Shown here in pieces: positions 11,518-28,620 of a stretch of 64,000 nucleotides of DNA. This DNA comes from Oceanibaculum indicum P24. Its GTDB lineage: Bacteria; Pseudomonadota; Alphaproteobacteria; Oceanibaculales; Oceanibaculaceae. Under the pieces are notes generated by a model. The model saw only the letters and a program-made list of their open reading frames with translations. It was not told the DNA's origin and made no database searches. Numbering within the stretch: the first letter of the stretch is position 1; each line of letters begins with the position of its first letter. The translations under genes were made by a program, and so were the position numbers. Where the stretch lies: NCBI RefSeq assembly GCF_000299935.1, contig NZ_AMRL01000007.1, forward strand, positions 1-64,000. The letters run 5' to 3'.

Positions 11518-14136
11518 TCACTTGGCCTGCTGGTTCGCCGGGGTCTTGCCCGTGCTGGTCCAGGGCAGCATGCCGACCAGCGCGCGGTAGGGGGCGACAT
11601 TGATGAAGGACATGCCCAGCGCCGCCCAGTAGGGCAGGGACAGCACGCCCAGCATCGCCAGCCACAGCCGTTCCTCAAGCTGGTTGAAGTGGTTGGTCAG
11701 CAGCATGGCCGCCATCGCGCCCAGCAGCAGCACCAGCATCAGTGCCTCCTCGCGCACCTGGCCGATCACCTGCACCCAGGCCGGACGGTTCTCCAGCTTC
11801 GGGGTACGCAGGAACGGACGTCCGGAGGTGAAGATGCCGGTCAGCATCGCCTTGGCGACCATGTGGCCCAGTGCCAGGCCGCCCAGGGCCGCGCCCAGAT
11901 TCTCCGCGAAGGAGCAGGGCACGCGCAGCTTGTACAGCCACAGCGACCGCAGCACCTTGAACACGAACACCGACAGGGCGGGCACCACGAAGGCGGCGGA
12001 CGGGAATTCCAGCACCTTCGGGAAGGCGATCATCATGCCGGTCCAGAAGATCGCGGCGACGGTGAAGACCATGCCCAGCGCATCGGCGAACCAGGGCGCC
12101 CAGCCGCTGATGAAGTGATAGCGCTGCGCGTTGGTCAGGTGGGTGACGCCCGGCTTCAGCAGGCTGCGCCAGTGCCGCTTCAGGATCTGCACCGAGCCAT
12201 AGGCCCAGCGGAAACGCTGGGTCTTGTAGGCATCCAGCGAATCCGGCATGACGCCCTTGCCGTAGGAGCGGGAATCATAGACCGACTGCCAGCCCTCCTG
12301 GAACAGGCGCAGGCCCAGCTCCGCGTCTTCGGTGATGCACCATTCCGCCCAGCCGCCGACATCCTGTAGCGCAGACTTGCGCACCATGGTCATGGTGCCG
12401 TGCTGGATGATGGCGTTGTCGTCGTTGCGCTGCACCATGCCGATCTTGAAGAAGCCGGCATATTCCCAGTAGCAGGCCTTCTTGAAGGCGCTTTCGTCCT
12501 GGTCGTAGTAATCCTGCGGCGCCTGCACCAGGCCGACGGCAGGGTCCTGGAAGTGCGGCACCATGTTCGTCAGCCAGTCGGGCGTGACGATGTAGTCGCT
12601 GTCGATGACGGCCACCACCTCGGCGTCGCCGGCGGTCTCCTTCAGGGCGAAGTTCAGCGCGCCCGCCTTGTAGCCCGGCCACGGGCACAAGTGGAAGAAG
12701 CGGAAGCGGTCCCCCAGCGCCTGGCAATGGATTTCCACCGGGCGCCAGACGGCCTCGTCCTTGGTGTTGTTGTCGATCACCAGCACTTCGAAATTCGGAT
12801 AGTCGAGCTTCGCCAGCGCGTTCAGCGTCTGCTTCAGCATCTCCGGCGGCTCGTTGTAGCACGGCACGTGGATCGACACCTTGGGCAGGCGCGACATGTC
12901 CGTGCCGGCGACGCGCGGCGCCTGCACCCGGCGGTTCTTGCGCCAGATCACGTCGATCAGCTCCACCATGTCGCCGGCGACAGCGGTGAACAGCAGCACC
13001 TGCAGCATGATGAGCACGGCCCAGGCAGCGATCTCGCCGGCGCCCAGATAGCGCATGGCTGGGATCAGCATGGCCATGGTGATCGCCGTGCCGGCACCCT
13101 GGAAGGTGGCGGCGAACACGGCGCGGCCGGGCAGCTTCAGCTCGCCGCGGGCGCGCAGATAGACGATGGTCGGGATCAGGCCGATGAACACCGCGATGGC
13201 AGCCCAGAGCGGCCAGTCCGGCAGTTCGGAGACCGGCTGGTTCCAGGAGAATTTCGGCTGGCGGTCAGCGTCGTACAGGCCCCAATAGGCGCCGACGATG
13301 CCTTCCTCGCCGATCTTCCAGGGCTGGTCGAACGCCTCGATGATGTAATAGTCGAACTGGTGGATGCGCGCGACATTCACCCATTCGCGGATGAAGCGCG
13401 CCTGGTTGACCAGCGAGGCCTCGGCGGCGCCCACCTTCTTGCCGGCGCTCGGCCAGCCCACCTCGGTGATGACGATCGGCTTGTTCGGATACAGCTCGCG
13501 CAGCTTGGCGTAGCGCTGCAGCGTGTCCTCGATGGCCATTTCGACCGGCACGCCTTCCCAGTAGGGCAGCAGCTGCACGGCGATGAAATCGACGGCCTCG
13601 ACCAGTTCCGGATGCTTGTGCCAGATGTGCCAGGGCTCCGCCGTGGAGACGCGCACCGAGGCATTCATCTGCACCTGGCGGATGAAGTCGATGATCTCCG
13701 GCACGGTCACCTCGGCGCGCAGCAGCGCCTCGTTGCCGACGATGACGCGCGAAACGTTGCGGTTCTGCCGCACGATGCTGATCAGGTCGGCCACCTCGCG
13801 CTTGTTGCGCGCGTCGTCGCTGCCGATCCAGGCGCCGGGCATGACACGCAGCCCATACTCGCGGGCCAGGGCCGGTATCCGGTCATGGCCATCGCTGGTG
13901 GTATAGGTGCGGATGCCCGAGGTCTCCTTCGAGACCAGTTCGAGGTCGCGGCGGATTTCCTCCGCCGACGGACCCTTGGTCAGCGGACCCTGGTCGCGCC
14001 GGTAGGGGCTGAAGGACATGCCGGCAATCGCGCCATCGGCATTGACGGCCGGGCGCGGCCAGTAGATGGCGCCCCAGACCGCGACATTCGCCAGAATGAC
14101 AAGCCCGACGATAAGCAGATTCGACAAACGCAACAT
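11518..14136 (-). CDS. ndvB: NdvB-like bifunctional GH17-GT2 beta-glucan synthase
   Basis: The 872-residue inner-membrane protein has an N-terminal helix, a periplasmic GH17 domain (~35-305; acid/base E136 in VGNEALL, nucleophile E225 in ITEVGWPSAG), membrane helices ~308-325, ~345-385, a cytoplasmic GT2 domain (~415-650) and C-terminal helices. GT2 motifs are complete: VPCYNEP, D-x-D as IDSD (512-514), TED (602-604), and QRFRW (640-644). The layout and size match Pseudomonas NdvB, which makes cyclic beta-1,3-glucans, and related GH17-GT2 proteins whose GH17 domains are beta-1,3-glucan transglycosylases. Expected role: polymerise UDP-glucose into beta-glucan and branch or cyclise it in the periplasm. 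Confidence 0.85.
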   Translation of the reverse strand: MLRLSNLLIVGLVILANVAVWGAIYWPRPAVNADGAIAGMSFSPYRRDQGPLTKGPSAEEIRRDLELVSKETSGIRTYTTSDGHDRIPALAREYGLRVMPGAWIGSDDARNKREVADLISIVRQNRNVSRVIVGNEALLRAEVTVPEIIDFIRQVQMNASVRVSTAEPWHIWHKHPELVEAVDFIAVQLLPYWEGVPVEMAIEDTLQRYAKLRELYPNKPIVITEVGWPSAGKKVGAAEASLVNQARFIREWVNVARIHQFDYYIIEAFDQPWKIGEEGIVGAYWGLYDADRQPKFSWNQPVSELPDWPLWAAIAVFIGLIPTIVYLRARGELKLPGRAVFAATFQGAGTAITMAMLIPAMRYLGAGEIAAWAVLIMLQVLLFTAVAGDMVELIDVIWRKNRRVQAPRVAGTDMSRLPKVSIHVPCYNEPPEMLKQTLNALAKLDYPNFEVLVIDNNTKDEAVWRPVEIHCQALGDRFRFFHLCPWPGYKAGALNFALKETAGDAEVVAVIDSDYIVTPDWLTNMVPHFQDPAVGLVQAPQDYYDQDESAFKKACYWEYAGFFKIGMVQRNDDNAIIQHGTMTMVRKSALQDVGGWAEWCITEDAELGLRLFQEGWQSVYDSRSYGKGVMPDSLDAYKTQRFRWAYGSVQILKRHWRSLLKPGVTHLTNAQRYHFISGWAPWFADALGMVFTVAAIFWTGMMIAFPKVLEFPSAAFVVPALSVFVFKVLRSLWLYKLRVPCSFAENLGAALGGLALGHMVAKAMLTGIFTSGRPFLRTPKLENRPAWVQVIGQVREEALMLVLLLGAMAAMLLTNHFNQLEERLWLAMLGVLSLPYWAALGMSFINVAPYRALVGMLPWTSTGKTPANQQAK

Positions 14137-16696: not shown

Positions 16697-17638
16697 TCAT
16701 TGTGAAACTGCTTTTTCCGGGCTCTCGGCCTCTGCCTCCGTGGTGCGGATCGTCGGCAGGTGCAGCAGCAGGGCCGCGGCGACGAACACCGAGGAGAAGG
16801 TGCCGATCAGAATGCCCCAGACCAGCGCCACGGTGAAATTCAGCAGCGTGCTGGTGGCGAAGAACATCAGCGGCAGGATGGCCACCAACGTCGTGCCGGA
16901 GGTCAGGATGGTGCGCGACAGCGTCTGGTTCACGCTGAGGTTGATCAGCTCCGCCATCGGCAGCTTCTTGTGCTTGCGCATGGTCTCGCGGATGCGGTCG
17001 AACACCACCACCGTGTCGTTGATCGAATAGCCGGCCAGGGTCAGCAGCGCGGCAATCGCGGTCAGGTTGAATTCCAGCCCGGTGATCGACAGCAGCCCCA
17101 GCGTGACCACCACGTCATGCGCGGTGGCGATCATCGCCGCCACGCCGAACTGCCATTCGAAGCGGAACCAGACATAGAGCGCGATGCCCAGCACGGCCAG
17201 CGCCGTGGCCAGCGCACCGTCGCGGAACAGCTCGGCACTGACGCGCGGGCCGACCAGTTCGGTGCGGCGGAACTCGTAGCCTTCGCCCAGCGCGGCGCGG
17301 ATGCGCGGGGCCGCCTGCTTCGCCTCGGTGGTGCCAAGCTGGTCGCTGTCGAGCCGGATCAGCGCCTCATTGGGCTTGCCGAACTGCTGTACTTCGGCGG
17401 CGCCAAGGCCGGCCTCGGTCAGCCGGCTGCGCAGACTGCCGGGATCGATGGGCTGGGCAGACTGGATCTCGACCAGCATGCCGCCCTTGAAGTCGATGCC
17501 GAGATTGAGGCCGTTGATCGCCAGCGACCCCAGGGTCGCCACGACCAGCAGCAGGGAGAAGGCATAGGCGGCGAAGCGATAGCGCACGAAGTCGAACGCC
17601 GTATTGTCCGGCAGCAGCCGGATGGGCAGGAAACGCAT
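16697..17638 (-). CDS. secF: Protein translocase subunit SecF
   Basis: The 313-residue protein starts at the ATG 8 nt after GGAGG. It has the SecF layout: TM1 (~18-38), the GIDFKGGMLVEI motif after TM1, a periplasmic P1-like domain (~45-130), and five C-terminal helices carrying TLAGYSINDTVVVFDRIRE, the D4/D5 motif. SecF works with SecD and YajC to drive late steps of Sec export using the proton or sodium gradient. Unusually, no secD is adjacent: a small unrecognised frame and then thiE lie upstream. The C terminus (residues ~300-313) is short and polar. Confidence 0.95.
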   Translation of the reverse strand: MRFLPIRLLPDNTAFDFVRYRFAAYAFSLLLVVATLGSLAINGLNLGIDFKGGMLVEIQSAQPIDPGSLRSRLTEAGLGAAEVQQFGKPNEALIRLDSDQLGTTEAKQAAPRIRAALGEGYEFRRTELVGPRVSAELFRDGALATALAVLGIALYVWFRFEWQFGVAAMIATAHDVVVTLGLLSITGLEFNLTAIAALLTLAGYSINDTVVVFDRIRETMRKHKKLPMAELINLSVNQTLSRTILTSGTTLVAILPLMFFATSTLLNFTVALVWGILIGTFSSVFVAAALLLHLPTIRTTEAEAESPEKAVSQ

Positions 17639-18223: not shown

Positions 18224-18850
18224 TCAAGAGGCAGCCTTTGCCAGTGCCGCCAGCAGATCGCGGACCTCGGCCGCCGGATCCTGCGCCCGCATGATACCGC
18301 CCATCACGGCGACGGCGGCGGCGCCGGCCTTCAGGCAGGTGCCGGCATTATCGACATCGATGCCGGCCAGCGCCACGATGGGAATTTGAAGCCGTGCTGC
18401 CACCTGGCGCAGCCCCTCGCTGCCCAGCGCCGGACCATGGCCGGGCTTGCTGGCGCTGGCGAAGATCGGGCTGAGAGTGACGTAATCGGCCCCGCTATCC
18501 AGCGCCTTCTCGGCCTCTTCCACACTGTGCGCGGACTGGCCGATCAGCACCTTTGGCCCCAGCACCGAACGGGCGCCCAGCGGCTTGCCGCCGGTCGGCA
18601 GGTGCAGCCCGGCCTTCAGCGCCTGTGCCGCCGCAATGTCGCTGTTGATCGTCAGGGTGGCGCCCTTGGCCGCGGTCAGTGCCGCGATCTCGTGGGCCAG
18701 TGCCAGCAGCTCGTCCGGCGGCAAATCCTTCTCGCGCAGCATCACCCAGCGGCAGCCGCCTTCCAGCGCCATTGCGACGGTCTCGGTCAGCGGGCGGGGG
18801 CTCTGCGTCCGGTCGGTGATCAGCAGCAGTCGCGCGGGGAGGGACCTCAA
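18224..18850 (-). CDS. thiE: Thiamine phosphate synthase ThiE
   Basis: The 208-residue TIM-barrel protein couples hydroxymethylpyrimidine diphosphate and thiazole phosphate carboxylate to give thiamine phosphate. Family motifs: LLLITDR at the N terminus, [10 protein letters not shown] (the QLREK pyrophosphate site), GHLP-type [24 protein letters not shown], and VAVMGGI at the phosphate loop. It overlaps thiG by 4 bp as the last gene of thiOSGE. TenI-type thiazole tautomerases are close paralogs; the operon position and the LREK and GGI loops favour ThiE, though TenI is not excluded. Confidence 0.85.
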
Positions 18851-19638
18851 GAGCCGATCATGCCCAGCTGCGGACTCGACGCCTCGGCATAGCCCTTGCG
18901 CGGGATGCGCCCGGCGCGGCGCGCGGCGCGACCGGCGGCCACGGCGTCACGCATGGCAGCCGCCATCAGCACCGGGTTGCGTGCCTTGGAGATGGCGGTG
19001 TTCAGCAGCACCGCGTCAGCCCCTATCTCCAGCGCGCGGGCGGCGTCGGAGGCGGTGCCGATGCCGGCATCGACGATCACCGGCACGGTGGAGCGGTTGC
19101 ACACCATCTCCAGATTATACGGGTTCACCAGCCCCATGCCGGAGCCGATGGGCGAGGCCAGCGGCATGACGGCGGCGCAGCCGACATCGGCCAGCTTCTG
19201 GCACACCACCGGGTCGTCGGTGCAGTAGGGCAGCACGATGAAGCCGTCCTTCACCAGCTCCTCCGCCGCCTCGACCAGCTGGGCGACATCGGGATACAGC
19301 GTTTCGCGGTCGCCGATCAGCTCCAGCTTCACCCAGTCGGTGCCGACTGCCTCGCGGCCCAGCTGCGCGGTCAGCACGGCGTCGCGCACCGTGCCGCAAC
19401 CCGCCGTGTTGGGCAGCAGGTGGCAGCGGTCCTTCAGCAGGTCCCACAGGTTTTCGGCATAGGATTCGGTGCTGACCCGGCGGATCGAGACGGTGACGAT
19501 CTCCGCGCCGCTGACCTCCAGCGCATCCAGCATGACCTGGCGGTTGGGATAGCCGGCCGTGCCGATCAGCAGGCGCGAGCCGAAGCTCTTGCCGGCCAGC
19601 GTGAAGGGGTCTTTCGCGGTGTCGTTCATCGCGTTCAT
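18847..19638 (-). CDS. thiG: Thiazole synthase ThiG
   Basis: The protein builds the thiazole ring from DXP, ThiS-thiocarboxylate and dehydroglycine. Motifs: [41 protein letters not shown] (the Schiff-base Lys), [12 protein letters not shown] and [18 protein letters not shown] at 19647 overlaps the thiS stop; the ATG at 19638 with GGTGAG five bases before it is preferred (263 residues), and another ATG follows at 19629. It is the third gene of the riboswitch-controlled operon; ThiO at its head supplies the dehydroglycine (imine), which is the oxygen-dependent version of the pathway. Confidence 0.93.
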
Positions 19639-19643
19639 GTCTC

Positions 19644-19883
19644 TCACCCGCCCTGGAAGGGCTGTACGATCTCGATGTCGTCGCTGGCGGAGATGGGCGT
19701 CGCCGCCCAGTCGCCGCGCTTCACGACCTTCTGGTTCACCGCCACGGCAATGCCGGGCCGGCTGGAATCGATGCCGCGCTCGGCCAGCAGGGCGGCGATG
19801 CTGCCGGCCATCGTGCCGTAGGGCTTGCCGTTCAGGCGGATCGAAAGCAGGGTCTTCGCGTCACTCATCGCAACCATACTCAT
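19644..19883 (-). CDS. thiS: Sulfur carrier protein ThiS
   Basis: A 79-residue ubiquitin-like protein with the C-terminal diglycine (EIVQPFQGG) that is adenylated and thiocarboxylated to donate sulfur to ThiG. SIRLNGKP at the start and [13 protein letters not shown] in the middle are typical. The ATG at 19883 overlaps the thiO stop (ATGA), pointing to coupled translation; an internal ATG at 19868 would give a more usual 74-residue length. Confidence 0.92.
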
Positions 19884-21037
19884 TCTGCGGCGATCTCAGG
19901 TCTTGCAGCAGCCTTAGCGGCGAAGCGCGCCAGCGTAAAGGGGGCAGCTTCGGGCAGCGGGCTGCCGGTCAGGATCTGGCGGGCGATGGCGTCGGCGGTG
20001 ATCGGCGCCAGCAGGATGCCGTTGCGGTGGTGGCCGGTCGCCACCAGCAGCCCATCGGTGCCGGTTTCGCCCAGGATCGGCGCATCGTCGCGGCTGGTCG
20101 GGCGGAAGCCCACCCACATCTCCTCAATCGGCAGTTCCTCAATGGCGGGAATCGCCCGCCAGGCCGCGTCCAGCAGCGCCAGCACGCCACCCGCCGTCAG
20201 CTCCGGGTCATGGCCTTTTTCCTCGACGGTGGCGCCGACGATCAGCCGCCCGTCGGCGCGCGGTACCAGATAGATTTTCGGCGCCCACAGCACTGACGTT
20301 GCCAGCGGTGCCTTCGGGTCCATGCACAGGCTCAGCATCTGGCCCTTCACCGGGCGGACCGGCGGCAGGGCGGCCTGCGGCAGGCCGGGAATGTCGCGCG
20401 ACCAAGAGCCGGCGGCCAGCACCACGATGTCAGCCTTATGGAGATCATCGCCAACCCGCACGCCGACGGCGCGGCCGTCTTCGGTCTCGATGCCGGCGAC
20501 CGGGCTGTTCTCGTGCAAGGTCCCGCCGGCATGCAGGAAGGCCGCCTTCAGCGCCTCGGACAGCCGGCGGTTCTCAACCTGATGATCGTCGGGTGCCCAG
20601 ATCGCCCCCGGCACGCCGGGCCGCAGATAGGGCTCGCGCTTCCGCGCCTCCGCCCCGCTCAGCCATTCGACGGCGAGGCCGAGATCGCGCTGGAATTCGT
20701 AAGTGAAGCGCAGCTGCTCCGCCTCGTCGCGGTTGGTGGCGGCGACCAGCGTGCCGGTCTCGCGATACTCGACATCAATGCCGCTGGCATCCTTCAGCTC
20801 GACGGCGAAGCCGGGCCACATCTTCTGGCTGGCCAGCGTCAGCGGCAGCAGGGATTCCTCACCGGGTTCGGTCTCGGCATTGGCGGCCAGCATGCCGGCG
20901 GCGGCCCAGCTGGCGCCGCGCCCGGCCTGGCCACGCTCGAACACGGACACCGGACATCCCGCCTGCGCCAGCCGCCAGCCGATGCCGAGGCCGCAGACAC
21001 CGGCACCGATGATGGCGACGGTTGGTTTAGGTGACAT
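19880..21037 (-). CDS. thiO: Glycine oxidase ThiO
   Basis: The 385-residue FAD-dependent oxidoreductase has the Rossmann GxGxxG at the N terminus (AIIGAGVCGLGIGWRLA), the family's GASWAAAGMLAA, a DHQVENRRL region, VLAAGSWSRDIPGL and the C-terminal GLLVATGHHRNGILLAPITA FAD motif. It oxidises glycine to iminoacetate for ThiG. It is the first gene of thiOSGE, and its start codon lies just after the TPP riboswitch, whose 3' strand includes the GAAGGGA ribosome site. Confidence 0.92.
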   Translation of the reverse strand: MSPKPTVAIIGAGVCGLGIGWRLAQAGCPVSVFERGQAGRGASWAAAGMLAANAETEPGEESLLPLTLASQKMWPGFAVELKDASGIDVEYRETGTLVAATNRDEAEQLRFTYEFQRDLGLAVEWLSGAEARKREPYLRPGVPGAIWAPDDHQVENRRLSEALKAAFLHAGGTLHENSPVAGIETEDGRAVGVRVGDDLHKADIVVLAAGSWSRDIPGLPQAALPPVRPVKGQMLSLCMDPKAPLATSVLWAPKIYLVPRADGRLIVGATVEEKGHDPELTAGGVLALLDAAWRAIPAIEELPIEEMWVGFRPTSRDDAPILGETGTDGLLVATGHHRNGILLAPITADAIARQILTGSPLPEAAPFTLARFAAKAAARPEIAAE

Positions 21038-21161: not shown

Positions 21162-21240
21162 AACGGCGGGGCTGGAGCCCCGCCGTTTTCTCATGCTCCC
21201 ACTGGGGCGGGGCCTGCGCCCCGCCGTTTTCACATGCTCC
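21162..21240 (-). terminator. Two consecutive terminator-like hairpins with a duplicated 23-bp segment
   Basis: Hairpin 1: AACGGCGGGGC (21162-21172) with GCCCCGCCGTT (21177-21187), 4-nt loop. Hairpin 2: GGCGGGGC/GCCCCGCC around 21206-21225, 4-nt loop. Each right arm is followed by GTTTTC and ATGCTCC, so 21177-21199 and 21218-21240 are 23-bp direct repeats with one mismatch. They sit between the riboswitch and the end of the first chemoreceptor gene and would stop transcripts of that gene before the thi leader. Confidence 0.6.
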
Positions 21241-21253
21241 GCAATGATTTTGC

Positions 21254-23233
21254 CTAAGCGGCGCGGACCTGGGACAGGAAGCTCTCCATCTCGCTGCGCA
21301 GCCTGACGGAAGACTGCGACAGCTCCTGCGCGCTGGACAACACCTGCCCGGCAGCCGAGCCGCCTTCGGATGCCGCCTGGCTGACCTGCACGATGGCGCT
21401 GGTCACTTCCTGCGTGCCGGCCGAGGCCTGCATGACATTGCGGGAGATTTCCTGCGTCGCCGCGTCCTGCTCCTCCACCGCAGAGGCGATGGCCGAGGCG
21501 ATCTCCCGGCTTTCGCCGATGACGGCGGCGATATCGCGGATCGCACCGACAGTGCGCTGCGTGCCGTCCTGCACCTCGCCGATCTGCAGCGTGATGTCCT
21601 CGGTCGCCTTGGCGGTCTGGCTGGCCAGGTTCTTCACTTCCGACGCGACGACGGCGAAGCCCTTGCCGGCCTCGCCGGCGCGGGCGGCCTCGATGGTGGC
21701 GTTCAGCGCCAGCAGGTTGGTCTGCTCGGCGATCTCGTTGATGAGCTGCACCACCTCGCCAATCTTCTGCGTCGCGGCCACCAGCCCTTCGGCGGTCACC
21801 TGGGTCTGGTTGGCGGTGCCGACGGCGCGGTCGGCGACCTGGGAGGATTGCGCCACCTGCTGGCCGATCTCGCGGACCGAGGCTGCCAGCTCCTCGCAGG
21901 CAGTAGCCACCGTCTCGACATTGGTGCTGGCCTCGGTCGCGGCAGCCGCCACCGTATCGGCCTGGGCGGTGGTTTCCTCCAGGCTGCTGTTCAATGTCTG
22001 CGCCGCCGCTTCCAGCTCGTTCGCCGCCGAGGACACGACGCGCACGATGCTGCCGACATTCTGCTCGAACTGGTCGGCAAGCTGCGCCATGACGCGCTTC
22101 TTCTCAGCCTCCAGCCGCAGGCGGTTCTCTTCCTCCGCCTGCTTTTCGGCCAGCGCGCGGTCGATGGCGTTCTGCTCGATGCGCTTCACCGCCCGCCCGA
22201 TAGCGCCGATCTCGTCGCCGCGATTCTGCGCCGGGATAGTCACTTCGGTCTGGCCGCCGGCCAGCGCATTCAGGGCGCCGGCCATGCCGACCAGCGGGCG
22301 CGAGATCGACAGGGCCAGCCAGATCGCCAGCAGCGACAGGGCCGCCAGGATGCTGGATATCATGATCCACAGCAGCTTTTCGGCTTCGGCATGTTCGGCG
22401 GCAAGGGTCTGCTGCGTGGATTCGTAGCCGGCGGCGATGCCGGCGAATACCTGCTCGATCAGCGGGTCGATGGCGGCATAGGCGCTGGACAGCGCCTCCA
22501 CCTGCTCGACCAGTTGCAGGCGCGTGGTCGCGAAGGCGTTGAAGGCGTCCTGGTAGCTGTTCAGCAGACCGGTGATCTCCTGCTTGGTGGCGGGCGGGAT
22601 ACTGTCGGTTTCGGCCATCAGCGCGGTGAAGGCGACCTTCCGCTGCGCGATATCCTCGATATATTTCGGGGTGAGGCGCAGCATGAAATCCTTCTCGTGC
22701 CGGCGCATCATCAGCATTAGCACGGCAAGTTCCGCCTGCTCATATTCCTTCAGCCGGGTCTCCACCGCATGCACGGCGGCGCGGAGATTGCCTTCCAGCC
22801 CTTCCGTCTCCTTGTAGCCGAGGCGGCGCTGGGACTCGACGACGGCGGCGAAACGCTGCCGGTAGGTATCGAGACCGGCGCCGATCTCGCGCAGCTTCTC
22901 CGCCAGGGCGGCGTCGGTCCGGGCCAGCGAGGTTGCCAGCCCACCGATCATGCCGCTGGCGTTATCGATGATTTTCCCGTGCCGCTCGACATAACGGTCC
23001 TCCCGGCGGATCAGGAAATCCTTCTCCGCGCGTCGTGCATCGAGCAATGCCGCATCAAGGCGCAGCGCCTGGAACTGCTGATCGGCGGCGAGGTCCAGCC
23101 GGGCCTGCTGTTCGGCGAATTTCTCCATGCCCTGGAAGAAGACGGCAACAGCCGCCAAGAGCCCGACGATGCCGAGCAGGCCGAGCAGGCCAACCTGAAA
23201 TTTGACGCTGACGCGCGAGAGGAAGCTGGACAT
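21254..23233 (-). CDS. Methyl-accepting chemotaxis protein with a long helical (HBM-like) sensor domain
   Basis: The 659-residue receptor has TM1 (~13-34), a ~250-residue all-helical periplasmic domain, TM2 (~288-310), HAMP (~311-365) and a cytoplasmic signalling domain. The sensor shows two similar halves, each with a conserved [13 protein letters not shown] or [13 protein letters not shown] segment, as in helical bimodular domains that bind organic acids. The hairpin tip has [31 protein letters not shown]. No CheR-tethering pentapeptide is at the C terminus. It signals through CheW/CheA encoded elsewhere. Confidence 0.92.
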
Positions 23234-23355
23234 GAAGGGGTTCCTGCGGTTCGGGGAAAAGAGTCGCGGCTGTTTTATTAGTGAATTATATTTTAATAAT
23301 TAATTAAATGCCAAGCGCTTCGCCCGGCAATATCACGGTCGCGCTGAGCGGAGGC

Positions 23356-24675
23356 CTAAATCGGCAGGCGGATGGTGACGGTGGTTCCCTGGTCGGGGGC
23401 ACTGTCCAGCGTGAAGCTGCCGCCATGCAGCTCGACCAGCCGGCGGGCCAGCGGCAGGCCGATGCCGATGCCGTCATGCTGGCGCACCAGCGCATCGTCG
23501 AACTGCACGAAGGGGGTCATCGCCTCGGCCAGCCGGTCTTCGGGAATCCCGATGCCGGTATCGGCAATGCGGATTTCCAGCCAGTGCTTCGGTGTCACAC
23601 GGGCGGCCAGCGTAATCGCTCCGCCTGCCGGCGTATGGCGCAGCGCGTTGGACAGCAGCTGGTCCAGGATCTGCCGCAGGCGGGACTGATCGCAGGGCAG
23701 GGATGGCAGGTCTTCCGCGATATCGCCGGTGAGGCTCACGCCAAGGCGCGTGGCCGTCTCGCCATGATGCCGCAGGCAGTCCGCCAGCTCCTGCCGGATG
23801 TCGAGAGGCGTGCGGGAGAGCGTCAGCATCCCGGCCTCGGCCTGCGAGACCTCCAGGATCTGGGTGATGGTCTGCAGGGCGCGGGTGCCGCTTTCGTGGA
23901 TATGGTCGATATAGGCCTTGTGCTTCGGGTTGCCGATCGGCCCCAGCACCTCGCTGCGCAGCATGTCGGAAAAGCCGATCACGGCATTCATCGGCGTGCG
24001 CAGATGATGGCTGAGCTGCGCCAGGGTCAGCTATTTGTTGCTCTGCGCCAGGGCCAGTTCCTGCCGGGTCGCTTCCAGCCGCCGGTGTTCCCGGTCCAGC
24101 GCGGCTTCCAGGCGCAGATTCTGCAGCAGCCGGCGGCTGTAGAAGGCGGAAATTACCCCCAGCATGATGGCGTAGAACAGCACCTGCCCCGCCATCGCCA
24201 GATAGACCGGCTGCTGCAGGATCAGCAGGGAAGCGGAAAGCGGCAGGGTGGCCCCCAGCAGATAGGCGAGATAGGCCGGCTGATACCAGCACAGGGCGGT
24301 GATCCCGCCGGCGGTCATGCCGGCGATCATGAAGCCGGCGAAGGCGAAATCCGCCTCGGTGCCGGCCGGCAGCAACAGCACCGGAAGGCACCCCCAGCTG
24401 AGGCCGCTCAGCGCTGCGCCCACGGTGAAGACATGCAGTTTCCGGCGGGTTGGCCATGCCGACCGCAGCATCCAGTGCGACAGGAAAAGCCGGGCAACAT
24501 TGAGGGCCGCCATGCCGGCGATCCAGCCCAGTGTGGTCGCGGTCGGCAGGGTTTCCCGCAACACCAGGACGGAGAGCAGCGCAACGACAAGGTTGGACAG
24601 GATGGTCGCGCGGTTCCGCAACAGCCCTTCTGCCTGCTGCGGGGCGATATCCGGCGCTGCTTCGGGATTAGGCAC
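23356..24675 (-). pseudogene. Membrane histidine kinase gene interrupted by an in-frame TAG
   Basis: One frame spans 440 codons but contains an amber codon (minus-strand TAG at 24031-24033). The 5' part (214 aa) has six hydrophobic segments and a coiled-coil end (LEAALDREHRRLEATRQELALAQSNK); the 3' part carries the H-box LSHHLRTPMNAVIGF, N-box QLLSNALRHTP, G1 ADTGIGIP and G2 GIGIGLPLARRLV. The stop falls between the linker helix and the H-box, where relatives have ...K-S[10 protein letters not shown]. All kinase motifs downstream look intact, suggesting a recent nonsense change or a sequencing error. The 3' part alone from the ATG at 23991 would lack the phosphorylated His. Confidence 0.85.
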
Positions 24676-24784
24676 CTGGCTGGTCCATCGCGGATGTCGT
24701 TGCGGGGTGGCCGTCGGGAGATGATCGAAGCACGCTAGAGTAGAAGAGTTGAGCGTCTGTTAACAGAAGGACAGGAAAAGGTGA

Positions 24785-24816
24785 CGGGACGGTGGGGCCC
24801 ATACCCCACCGTCCCG
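24785..24816 (-). terminator. Terminator of the second chemoreceptor gene
   Basis: A perfect 13-bp stem (CGGGACGGTGGGG, loop CCCATA, CCCCACCGTCCCG) lies 20 nt beyond the minus-strand stop codon; on that strand it is followed by TCACCTTTTCC. A good intrinsic terminator. Confidence 0.75.
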
Positions 24817-24835
24817 CCCGTTACCCGGTCGCGCT

Positions 24836-26551
24836 TCAGGCGGTACGCACGCGGTTCAGGAAGTTGCCCATCTCGTTGCGCAGCTTGGCTGCCGTACGGG
24901 ACAGTTCCTTGGCGCTTTCTAGCACCTGGCTGGCCGCTGACCCGCCCTCGGACGCGGCCTGGCTGACCTGCACGATGGCGCTGGAGACCTCCTGCGTGCC
25001 GGCCGAGGCCTGCTGCACATTGCGGGCGATCTCGTCGGTCGCGGCGCCCTGCTCCTCGACGGCGGCGGCGATGGAGGAGGCAATCTCCCGGCTTTCGCCG
25101 ATGACATTGGCGATCTCCTTGATCGCATCCACCGTGCGGTGGCTGACCGACTGGACCTCGCCGATCTGCAGGGTGATGTCCTCGGTCGCCTTGGCGGTCT
25201 GGCTGGCCAGGTTCTTCACCTCGGACGCCACCACCGCGAAGCCCTTGCCGGCTTCACCAGCTCGGGCGGCTTCGATGGTCGCGTTCAGCGCCAGAAGGTT
25301 GGTCTGCTCGGCGATCTCCTGGATGAGGTTCACGACCTCGCCGATCTTCTGGGTAGCGGCCACCAGCCCTTCGGCGGTGGTCTGGGTCTGGTTGGCGTTG
25401 CTGACCGCGCGGTCGGCGATGCTGGAGGACTGGCTGACCTGGCCGCCGATCTCGCGGACCGAGGCCGCAAGCTCCTCGCAGGCGGTCGCCACGGTCTCGA
25501 CATTGGCGCTGGCCTGGTTGGCTGCCGCGGACACCGTATTGGCCTGGCTGTTGGTCTCGTCCAGGCTGGCATTCAGCGTCTGCGCCGCGGTTTCCAGCTC
25601 CGTCGCCGCCGCCGAGACGATGCTGACGATGCTGCCGACATTCTCCTCGAAGCTGTCGGCCAGCGCGATCATCGCCTGGCGTTTTTCCTCGGTGGCGCGG
25701 GCTGCATCCTGCTCGCGTTCGGCTTCCAGGCGCTGGCGTTCCTGCGCGTTCGCCTTGAAGATATCGAGCGCGCGGGCCATGCCGCCAACCTCATCGCCCC
25801 GCCCGGTATAGGGTGTGTCGCCGTCCAGCCGGCCGTTGGCGACTTCGACCATCAGCCCGCTCAGCCGGCCCAGCGGCGCGGTGGTCCGACCCATGAGCAC
25901 CACGGCGATCAGCCCGCCGATCACCAGAACCACGCCGCTGGCCGTCAGGATGGCGACGATCATCTCGTTCAGCGTGGCGTTGATGGTGGATTTCAGTACG
26001 CCGGCATAGAGGATGCCGATCACCTTGCGCTCCGGGCCGAAGATCGGCTCGTAGATGGTGTAGTATTCCTTGCCCAGGATGGTGGCCTCGCCGTTATAGG
26101 TCTCGCCGCGCAGCATGTAGGGATAGACCGCGCCGTTCTTGCCCAGCGGCGTGCCGACGGCGCGCTGGCCGTCATCCTTGATGATGTTGGTGGAGCGGCG
26201 GAAGAAATCCTCCTTCGCCGGGTCCCAGGCGAAGACGGTCGCGGTCTCGCCGGTCAGCAGGCCGATCTCGTCGATCATGTCGTGGTTCGGAAAGTCCGGG
26301 ATGGCCGGCAGGGTGAGGGCCGACACCCGGCCTTCCTTGCTGACCGTGAAGCGGGTTTCCGGGATCGCCTTCCGCAGCAGCACGGCAGCGGTGCGCAGGC
26401 TGGCATTCTGCCGGGCGATGACCTGGCTGGCGATGTCCTGCTTCAGGATATAGGCCGTGGTGCCGCCGACCGCGAGCACAGACAGCGCGATGAGGCAAAG
26501 GGTCAGGGTGACCAGCTTGCCGCGGAGAGAGAGGCTGAACCTGTTCTTCAA
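24836..26551 (-). CDS. Methyl-accepting chemotaxis protein with single Cache sensor
   Basis: The 571-residue receptor has TM1 (~13-36), a periplasmic domain (~37-195), TM2 (~197-220), HAMP and the signalling hairpin. The sensor matches the Cache_3-Cache_2 type: [11 protein letters not shown], then [19 protein letters not shown], then [10 protein letters not shown] and [10 protein letters not shown]. Such domains bind small carboxylates or amino acids. The start appears to be TTG at 26551, eight nt after GGGAG; no in-frame ATG precedes it. The last ~260 residues are nearly those of the two neighbouring receptors. Confidence 0.92.
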
Positions 26552-26755
26552 TGTCTTGTCTCCCGTCAGGAGTGATTGTTCGGGCTAAGGCTATTTCCAG
26601 TCCCTGACCGATAAGCTGCAGGTTGAATTTCTTTTGTTTTTTAAAGGTTTGTTAAAGTCGCGCTAAATTAGATATCAGCCTATTCTTAATTTTTCTTAAA
26701 CATGTCCGGCGCTGCTCTTCAGAGCCTGCTGCGCCATGCAGGCTCCGGACGCGAA

Positions 26756-26785
26756 AAGGGCGCCGGCAGTGCTGCCGGCGCCCTT
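26756..26785 (-). terminator. Terminator of the third chemoreceptor gene
   Basis: A perfect 13-bp stem (AAGGGCGCCGGCA, loop GTGC, TGCCGGCGCCCTT) followed on the minus strand by TTTTCGCG. It lies about 40 nt after the stop codon of the chemoreceptor gene and isolates it from the next one. A second, weaker hairpin (GAGCCTGC/GCAGGCTC, ~26722-26746) follows it. Confidence 0.8.
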
Positions 26786-26826
26786 CTGTTGCGGTGTCAG
26801 ATGGAGTGTTGATCAGGCTGCGCGCC

Positions 26827-28620
26827 TTAGGCCGCGCGAACCCGGGCGAGGAAGCTTTCCATCTCGGTCCGCAGCTGGGCGGCGGACTGGGAGAGTTCCT
26901 GCGCGCTGGACAGCACCTGGCTGGCCGCCGAGCCGCCTTCGGATGCCGCCTGGCTGACCTGCACGATGGCGCCCGAGACCTCCTGCGTGCCGGCCGAGGC
27001 CTGCTGCACATTGCGGGCGATCTCCTGGGTTGCCGCGTCCTGCTCCTCCACCGCCGAGGCGATGGCCGAGGCGATCTCCCGGCTCTCGTTGATGACCTGG
27101 GCAATCTCCTTGATGGCGCCGACGGTGCGCTGGGTACCGCCCTGCACCTCACTGATCTGCAAGGTGATATCCTCAGTCGCCTTGGCGGTTTGGCTGGCGA
27201 GGTTCTTCACCTCCGAGGCCACCACGGCGAAGCCCTTGCCGGCCGCACCAGCGCGGGCCGCCTCGATGGTGGCGTTCAGCGCCAGCAGATTGGTCTGTTC
27301 GGCGATCTCCTGGATCAGGTTCACCACCTCGCCGATCTTCTGGGCGGCGGCAAACAGGCCTTCGGCGGTTTCCTGGGTCTGTTCCGCCGTGCCGACCGCG
27401 CGTTCGGAGACGCGGGAAGACTGGCTGACCTGGCTGCCGATCTCGCGGACCGAGGCCGCCAGCTCCTCGCAGGCAGTGGCCACCGTCTCGACATTGGTGC
27501 TGGCCTGGGTCGCCGCGGCCGCGACCGTGCTGGCCTGGGCGTTGGTCTCTTCCAGGCTGGCGTTCAGCGTCTGCGCCGCCGCCTCCAGCTCCGTCGCCGC
27601 CGCCGAGACGATGCCGACGATGCTGCCGACGCTCTGCTCGAAACTGTCAGCAAGCTGCAGCATCGCCTGACGCTTTTCTTCCTCGGCCCGCGCCTCGCGC
27701 TCGGCCTGTTCCGCCTCCAGCCGCTTGATCTCGATGGTGCGCTGCTTGAAGGTGCGGAAGGCGAGGCCGACCTGGCCCACCTCGTCACGGCTGCGCACAT
27801 CGACATCGATGCTGGTGTCGCCCTCGGCAAGCCGCAGCAGCGCATTGACAACCTGCGACAGCGGGCGGGTGATCTGGCCGCGTACCAGCCAGGCGGCGAT
27901 GCCGAAGCCCAGCACGGCGCCGGCAATCGACAGCGCAGCCATGAGCTTCAGGGCGAACTGCTCATGCGCATAGGCGGTTTCCATGGCCTCCGCGGTGAAG
28001 CTGTCCAGCTTGTTGATCAGCGCGACGAACTGCTTGTGCAGGGTTTCCTCGCTGGCCAGCACACCGGCCAGCATGCCTTCCGCCTGCTCGATACGGCCCT
28101 CGCGCAGGGCCGTGGTGATGTCGCGGATCTGATCGGACAGGATAACGAAGTTGCGGTCGATGGCCTCCAGATCATGCAGGGCGGTGCTGTACTCTTCCGC
28201 TTCCGCCGCATCCTTGGCGTTCGCGATGGCCGCTTTCGCCAGATCCTCTGCCGCGCGGATTTCCGCATAGACCTTCGGTGTCGTTGCTTCCAGTGCCGAG
28301 ATGGCGTTCTGCAGGCTGGTGGCGTTGGCATCGGACCGCAGGCCGCCGAGGCGGGTCACCCGCTCCAGCAGTACCGCCTGTTCAAGCTGATGTTCGGAAA
28401 CCTTGTGGACCATGGAGGTCAGCGGCATGTCGTTGCGCACGACCGACTGCATTTCCTCGCCGATCAGTGAGAGCTGCCAGACGGCGGCACCGCCGACGGC
28501 GAAGGTGAAGGAAATGCAGAGGCCGACAATGGCCAGCAGCTTCTGCATGACGGAGAGGCTGCGACCGTCGCGCCGGGCGCGGACGGGGCTGCCTGACAGG
28601 GCAATATCGCTCATGTTCAT
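26827..28620 (-). CDS. Methyl-accepting chemotaxis protein with four-helix-bundle-type sensor
   Basis: The 597-residue receptor has TM1 (~25-48), a ~165-residue helical periplasmic domain ([27 protein letters not shown] at its start), TM2 (~218-240), HAMP ([21 protein letters not shown]) and the signalling domain. The sensor resembles four-helix-bundle ligand domains but the ligand is unknown. Two ATGs lie at 28620 and 28614; AGGAG is 3 and 9 nt away respectively, so the second is about equally likely. The cytoplasmic tip is nearly identical to the other two receptors. Confidence 0.92.

Follow-up and report, generated by a model that had tools for sequence, protein, structure and literature searches.

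An in-frame amber codon just ahead of the H-box interrupts a membrane histidine kinase gene that is intact in two related genomes

Introduction

In-frame stop codons occur in bacterial genes whose dN/dS lies below 1, as outlined by Belinky et al. 2021 (PMC7918605). The lone in-frame stops of that account resemble the case described here in being nonsense substitutions in genes otherwise under purifying selection, but they are common to at least two species, whereas ours is known from one genome. A kinase function carried by two polypeptides, as a working split kinase would require, is described for CheA3 and CheA4 of Rhodobacter sphaeroides (PMC3591291). These are presented as two complex-forming proteins of the CheA type, in contrast to the present locus, where a single frame encodes a membrane kinase of the HisKA type and the second half has no usable start. 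A literature search for amber stops within histidine kinases returned no such case, judged by titles and abstract openings.

Results

A lone amber codon divides one kinase frame

The window, that is, the whole 64,000-nucleotide stretch of Oceanibaculum indicum P24 DNA analysed here, comes from one draft assembly of one strain (71 contigs). Translation of the minus-strand frame 23356-24717 gave a single internal stop, a TAG, followed by a terminal TAG (Table 1). From the GTG at 24675 to the terminal stop the frame comprises 440 codons with both halves in register, as an earlier note on this DNA had described. The residues ...ELALAQSNK precede the amber codon and LTLAQLSHHLRTPMNAVIGFSD... follow it. 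Hydropathy peaks in the 5′ half lie at residues 25-43, 84-102, 110-128, 135-153 and 157-175, and its linker is charged, with the look of a coiled coil when judged by eye; this 214-codon half had no match in Pfam. The 3′ half, in contrast, scored 51.2 bits for HisKA (cut-off 26.9) and 100.6 bits for HATPase_c (cut-off 26.4), and with the H-box histidine also present the coding sequence belongs to the HisKA/HATPase_c histidine kinases. The HisKA match starts directly after the amber codon, and all the motifs that we take to be H, N, G1 and G2 are kept. By analogy with the HisKA family, the H-box histidine is likely the phospho-acceptor. The earlier note was thus right that the membrane segments and coiled coil reside in one half and the kinase motifs in the other, and equally that codon bias is normal on both sides of the stop: GC3 is 0.836 in the 5′ half and 0.857 in the 3′ half, within the 0.749-0.913 spanned by eight neighbouring genes. 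Of the 29 places in the genome with a HisKA match, the one in the window has the shortest open frame (224 aa; next 366).

Table 1. Coordinates of the interrupted kinase gene, its orthologues and other frames with stops
Feature	Coordinates	Strand	Length or basis
5′ kinase half with uncertain GTG start, five or more hydrophobic segments and a probable coiled-coil linker	24034..24675	-	214 codons
Internal TAG (amber); each orthologue has TGG (Trp)	24031..24033	-	
3′ half (224 codons) carrying HisKA and HATPase_c	23359..24030	-	profile scores
H-box histidine codon (SHHLRTP), codon 8 after the stop	24007..24009	-	sequence
First ATG/GTG/TTG in frame after the amber codon (ATG, codon 14)	23989..23991	-	Met also in uninterrupted orthologues
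Normal terminal stop, likewise TAG	23356..23358	-	
Intact syntenic orthologue in G001	G001:C2:363819-365123		same genus
Intact syntenic orthologue in G002	G002:C10:43856-45163		same genus
G001 frames with a stop before the listed start	listed starts at 14136, 39907, 6641, 36663		
Stop-bearing frames antisense to a listed gene, one each in the G001 and G002 comparisons	21192-22322; 17178-17594		

The kinase core bears a resemblance to DivJ, HrmK, TorS and PdhS, with scores that stay far under all the curated cut-offs. Identity with DivJ or PdhS was rejected on the NCBIfam equivalog cut-offs (149.9 bits vs 1000 and 132.9 bits vs 2000, respectively); both matches start at residue 194 and cover the kinase core and linker only. 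We therefore claim no named family for this kinase. No partner gene was noticed beside it. Two frames on one side, 18847-19647 and 19880-21037, appear ThiG- and ThiO-like on reading of the sequence, and together with the chemoreceptor genes beside the kinase they follow the same order as in the related genomes G001 and G002. Three chemoreceptor genes recognized by Pfam surround the kinase (21254-28620). The compared stretch of G001 holds one counterpart, 85% identical to 26827-28620, and G002 holds counterparts of 21254-23233 (87%) and 24836-26551 (77%); members of this chemoreceptor cluster thus appear to be gained and lost within the genus.

Both orthologues encode tryptophan at the stop

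We searched 59 genomes (the source genome and 58 others) with the read-through protein. Full-length uninterrupted matches were found in G001 (80% identity, 757 bits) and G002 (75%, 708 bits), the next best match reaching 215 bits. Both correspond to the same gene, with the same architecture and chromosomal neighbourhood. The 5′ half is 81% identical to its counterpart in G001 and 74% to that in G002, and the 3′ half 78% and 77%, respectively. Since a stop-free orthologous frame covers both halves in the two genomes, the interrupted frame is a genuine gene and not a chance product. Among the genomes searched, the order is represented by four including the source, three of which carry the kinase gene; the search of these four gave no match to the 5′ half in the one remaining member of the genus, a genome of 91% completeness. 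A contig scan for further strains of the species returned the G002 contig alone.

In the codon alignment, the window reads AAC AAA TAG CTG ACC, G001 reads AAT AAA TGG CAG ACC and G002 reads AGC AAA TGG CGC ACC. Hence, the stop stands where both of the orthologues found have a sense codon, TGG, and no frameshift or second stop distinguishes the window copy from them. Most simply, the ancestral residue would be tryptophan, lost through one G-to-A transition on the coding strand; the direction from TGG to TAG would follow from parsimony over three sequences with no outgroup.

The earlier note had aligned a serine to this position and proposed a change from TCG to TAG. The comparison with close strains that it called for, made here with other genomes of the genus, gave TGG and not a serine codon, and serine was rejected as the ancestral residue on this basis. 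Across 37 distinct H-box contexts drawn from loci L001-L038, of which two yielded two contexts and three yielded no context, the stop column holds Ser in 28, Ala in 2, Thr in 2, Gly in 1, Asn in 1, Trp in 2 (the orthologues) and the stop in 1. Serine is thus frequent at this column in distant kinases, which is why alignment by eye pointed to it. A further kinase match with an internal TAA is L026 (G054:C2:1633311-1634093), whose genome belongs to the same class and a different family.

We then considered stops in the surrounding genes, keeping frames with at least half of their base differences on third codon positions. Of the frames matched to the window, 6 of 34 in G001 and 2 of 9 in G002 contain a stop. 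These are the kinase in both comparisons, four G001 frames in which the stop precedes the listed start, and one antisense frame in each (Table 1); no other listed reading frame has an internal stop among the 34 and 9 matched frames. This argues against a generally poor assembly, though not against a single wrong base.

Decoding of UAG and possible restarts

Release factor 1 is present in the genome (492.6 bits vs a cut-off of 423.25). ARAGORN called 41 tRNAs and RF00005 matched 42 places, the 42nd being a partial tRNA-Lys. None of the 41 identified tRNAs has a CUA anticodon, in a set that looks incomplete, as no tRNA-Ile was called; the suppressor tRNA whose search the earlier note had suggested was accordingly not seen within that set. 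Nor was there a sign of general amber tolerance, none of the 29 HisKA matches in the genome holding an internal stop. As a separate observation, an integrated element of ~5.8 kb lies outside the window (L091, G000:C16:6000-12900), with an intact tRNA-Lys(CTT) at one end and an exact 49-base copy of the 3′ end of that tRNA at the other. It carries a tyrosine integrase, a BRO-N protein and a KAP-family NTPase that matches PADLOC's PifA over almost its full length (373.5 bits).

Downstream of the amber codon, codons 1, 3 and 10 are CTG. No ATG, GTG or TTG lies between the stop and the histidine at codon 8, where CTG alone is available; since the first ATG is codon 14, a restart product would have no phospho-acceptor. 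By eye, an AGGA string ends 25 bases ahead of the TAG and 28 bases ahead of the first CTG, a distance that exceeds the usual spacing.

The kinase half evolved under constraint

To compare branches, we counted as private each kinase codon at which a single sequence differs from the other two (window, G001, G002). In the window such changes number 27 nonsynonymous and 33 synonymous, and in G001 14 and 22, ratios that do not differ significantly between the two branches (Fisher p 0.67). The window share of 45% nonsynonymous changes lies below the 68% expected under neutrality for this composition with transitions weighted 3 (binomial p 1.6e-4). The 3′ half alone also falls below (15:21, p 7e-4), whereas the 5′ half is only marginally under neutral (12:12, p 0.055). 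Purifying selection has therefore acted on the gene in the past: the kinase half was selected through much of the period after the split, and the kinase as a whole through a large part of its recent past. In a rough fit with the G001 rate fixed, the neutral share of the window branch had a maximum-likelihood value of 12% and an upper limit of ~47%.

The count of private residues in the kinase is 42 in the window vs 20 in G001, compared with totals of 66 vs 69 in eight neighbours. These totals omit chemoreceptor genes, where paralogues confuse the matches (18 private residues vs 19 for 26827-28620). Such an excess could reflect relaxation lasting longer than “very recent”, or a different history of this gene. 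The nonsynonymous share of the kinase exceeds that of its neighbours on both branches (Fisher p 1.7e-4 for the window and 1.5e-3 for G001), indicating that this gene is fast-evolving in general, and the nonsynonymous excess of the window over G001 is weak (27 vs 14, p 0.06). In the kinase, G002 is almost as near the window as G001 is, but in the neighbours it is much more distant, and because this pattern of relatedness is unlike that of the neighbours, recombination or replacement at the kinase locus may be involved. For the 3′ half, dN is 0.093 between G001 and G002, and 0.159 and 0.153 to the window, so that the two orthologues are more alike than either is to the window copy.

Discussion

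The interruption probably reflects an ordinary event that disables a sensor kinase, either a nonsense mutation of recent date or a polymorphism of the strain. We propose that a membrane histidine kinase, intact in the two nearest genomes carrying the gene, newly gained one nonsense mutation, which would most simply be a change of TGG to TAG. The stop falls where the linker ends, and seven codons separate it from the H-box histidine. A protein terminated there would be a membrane/linker stub of 214 residues lacking the kinase domains, and no phosphorylatable form of the 3′ half would be produced; together these would make the gene a pseudogene at an early stage, or else a polymorphism at the level of strains. 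The stop is likely real in the organism and would be expected to abolish kinase function. The “very recent pseudogene” of the earlier note is upheld as to a single, probably recent nonsense change in an otherwise intact kinase; how recent is less certain, since the excess of private residues could mean longer relaxation.

An error of sequencing or assembly, in which case the organism would have a sense codon and an intact kinase, is an unlikely though sensible alternative, also raised in the earlier note. A lone substitution with all else intact is what an error would look like, and the data are a single draft assembly. Against this, the listed frames compared nearby and the 29 HisKA matches contain no other stop, so the assembly is not generally error-prone, and substitution errors are rare in short-read assemblies, as this one may be. 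Functional low-level readthrough of the amber codon, yielding a reduced amount of full-length kinase, is considerably less probable. Amber codons with a C directly after them are leaky, and the 3′ half did evolve under constraint, although selection predating the mutation explains that constraint. RF1 is present, no suppressor tRNA appears among the 41 identified in the incomplete-looking set, and the stop is absent from both orthologues, where conserved recoding would retain it. Bacterial in-frame stops with dN/dS below 1 lend the idea a precedent, but such stops tend, in the account of the same authors, to last only a short evolutionary time (PMC7918605).

A more elaborate version, in which the amber codon is a tolerated switch that lowers expression, seems very improbable: weak UAG-C readthrough would keep a small full-length pool, with the more plentiful stub occupying the sensor or joining the full-length form in inactive heterodimers, and this would tune the kinase among the chemoreceptor genes. 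We consider it scarcely credible that the membrane stub and a separately translated kinase half form a working split kinase, as the earlier note had also envisaged. Both halves are intact in the DNA, the AGGA string precedes the TAG, and CheA3/CheA4 provide a precedent, as described (PMC3591291), for a kinase on two polypeptides. Nevertheless, every conventional start lies past the H-box histidine, only CTG codons precede it, the AGGA string is farther from the first of these than is usual, and a break between linker and HisKA would be expected to uncouple sensor from kinase. Thus, neither readthrough, which may still occur at a low level, nor a split kinase has positive support.

With a recent disabling nonsense mutation or polymorphism as the favoured explanation, the kinase can be marked as probably lost in this strain, with the intact orthologues supplied for comparison; beyond annotation, this would mean little. 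If the stop proved to be fixed across strains with constraint downstream, the gene would become a clean natural case for readthrough in a signalling protein.
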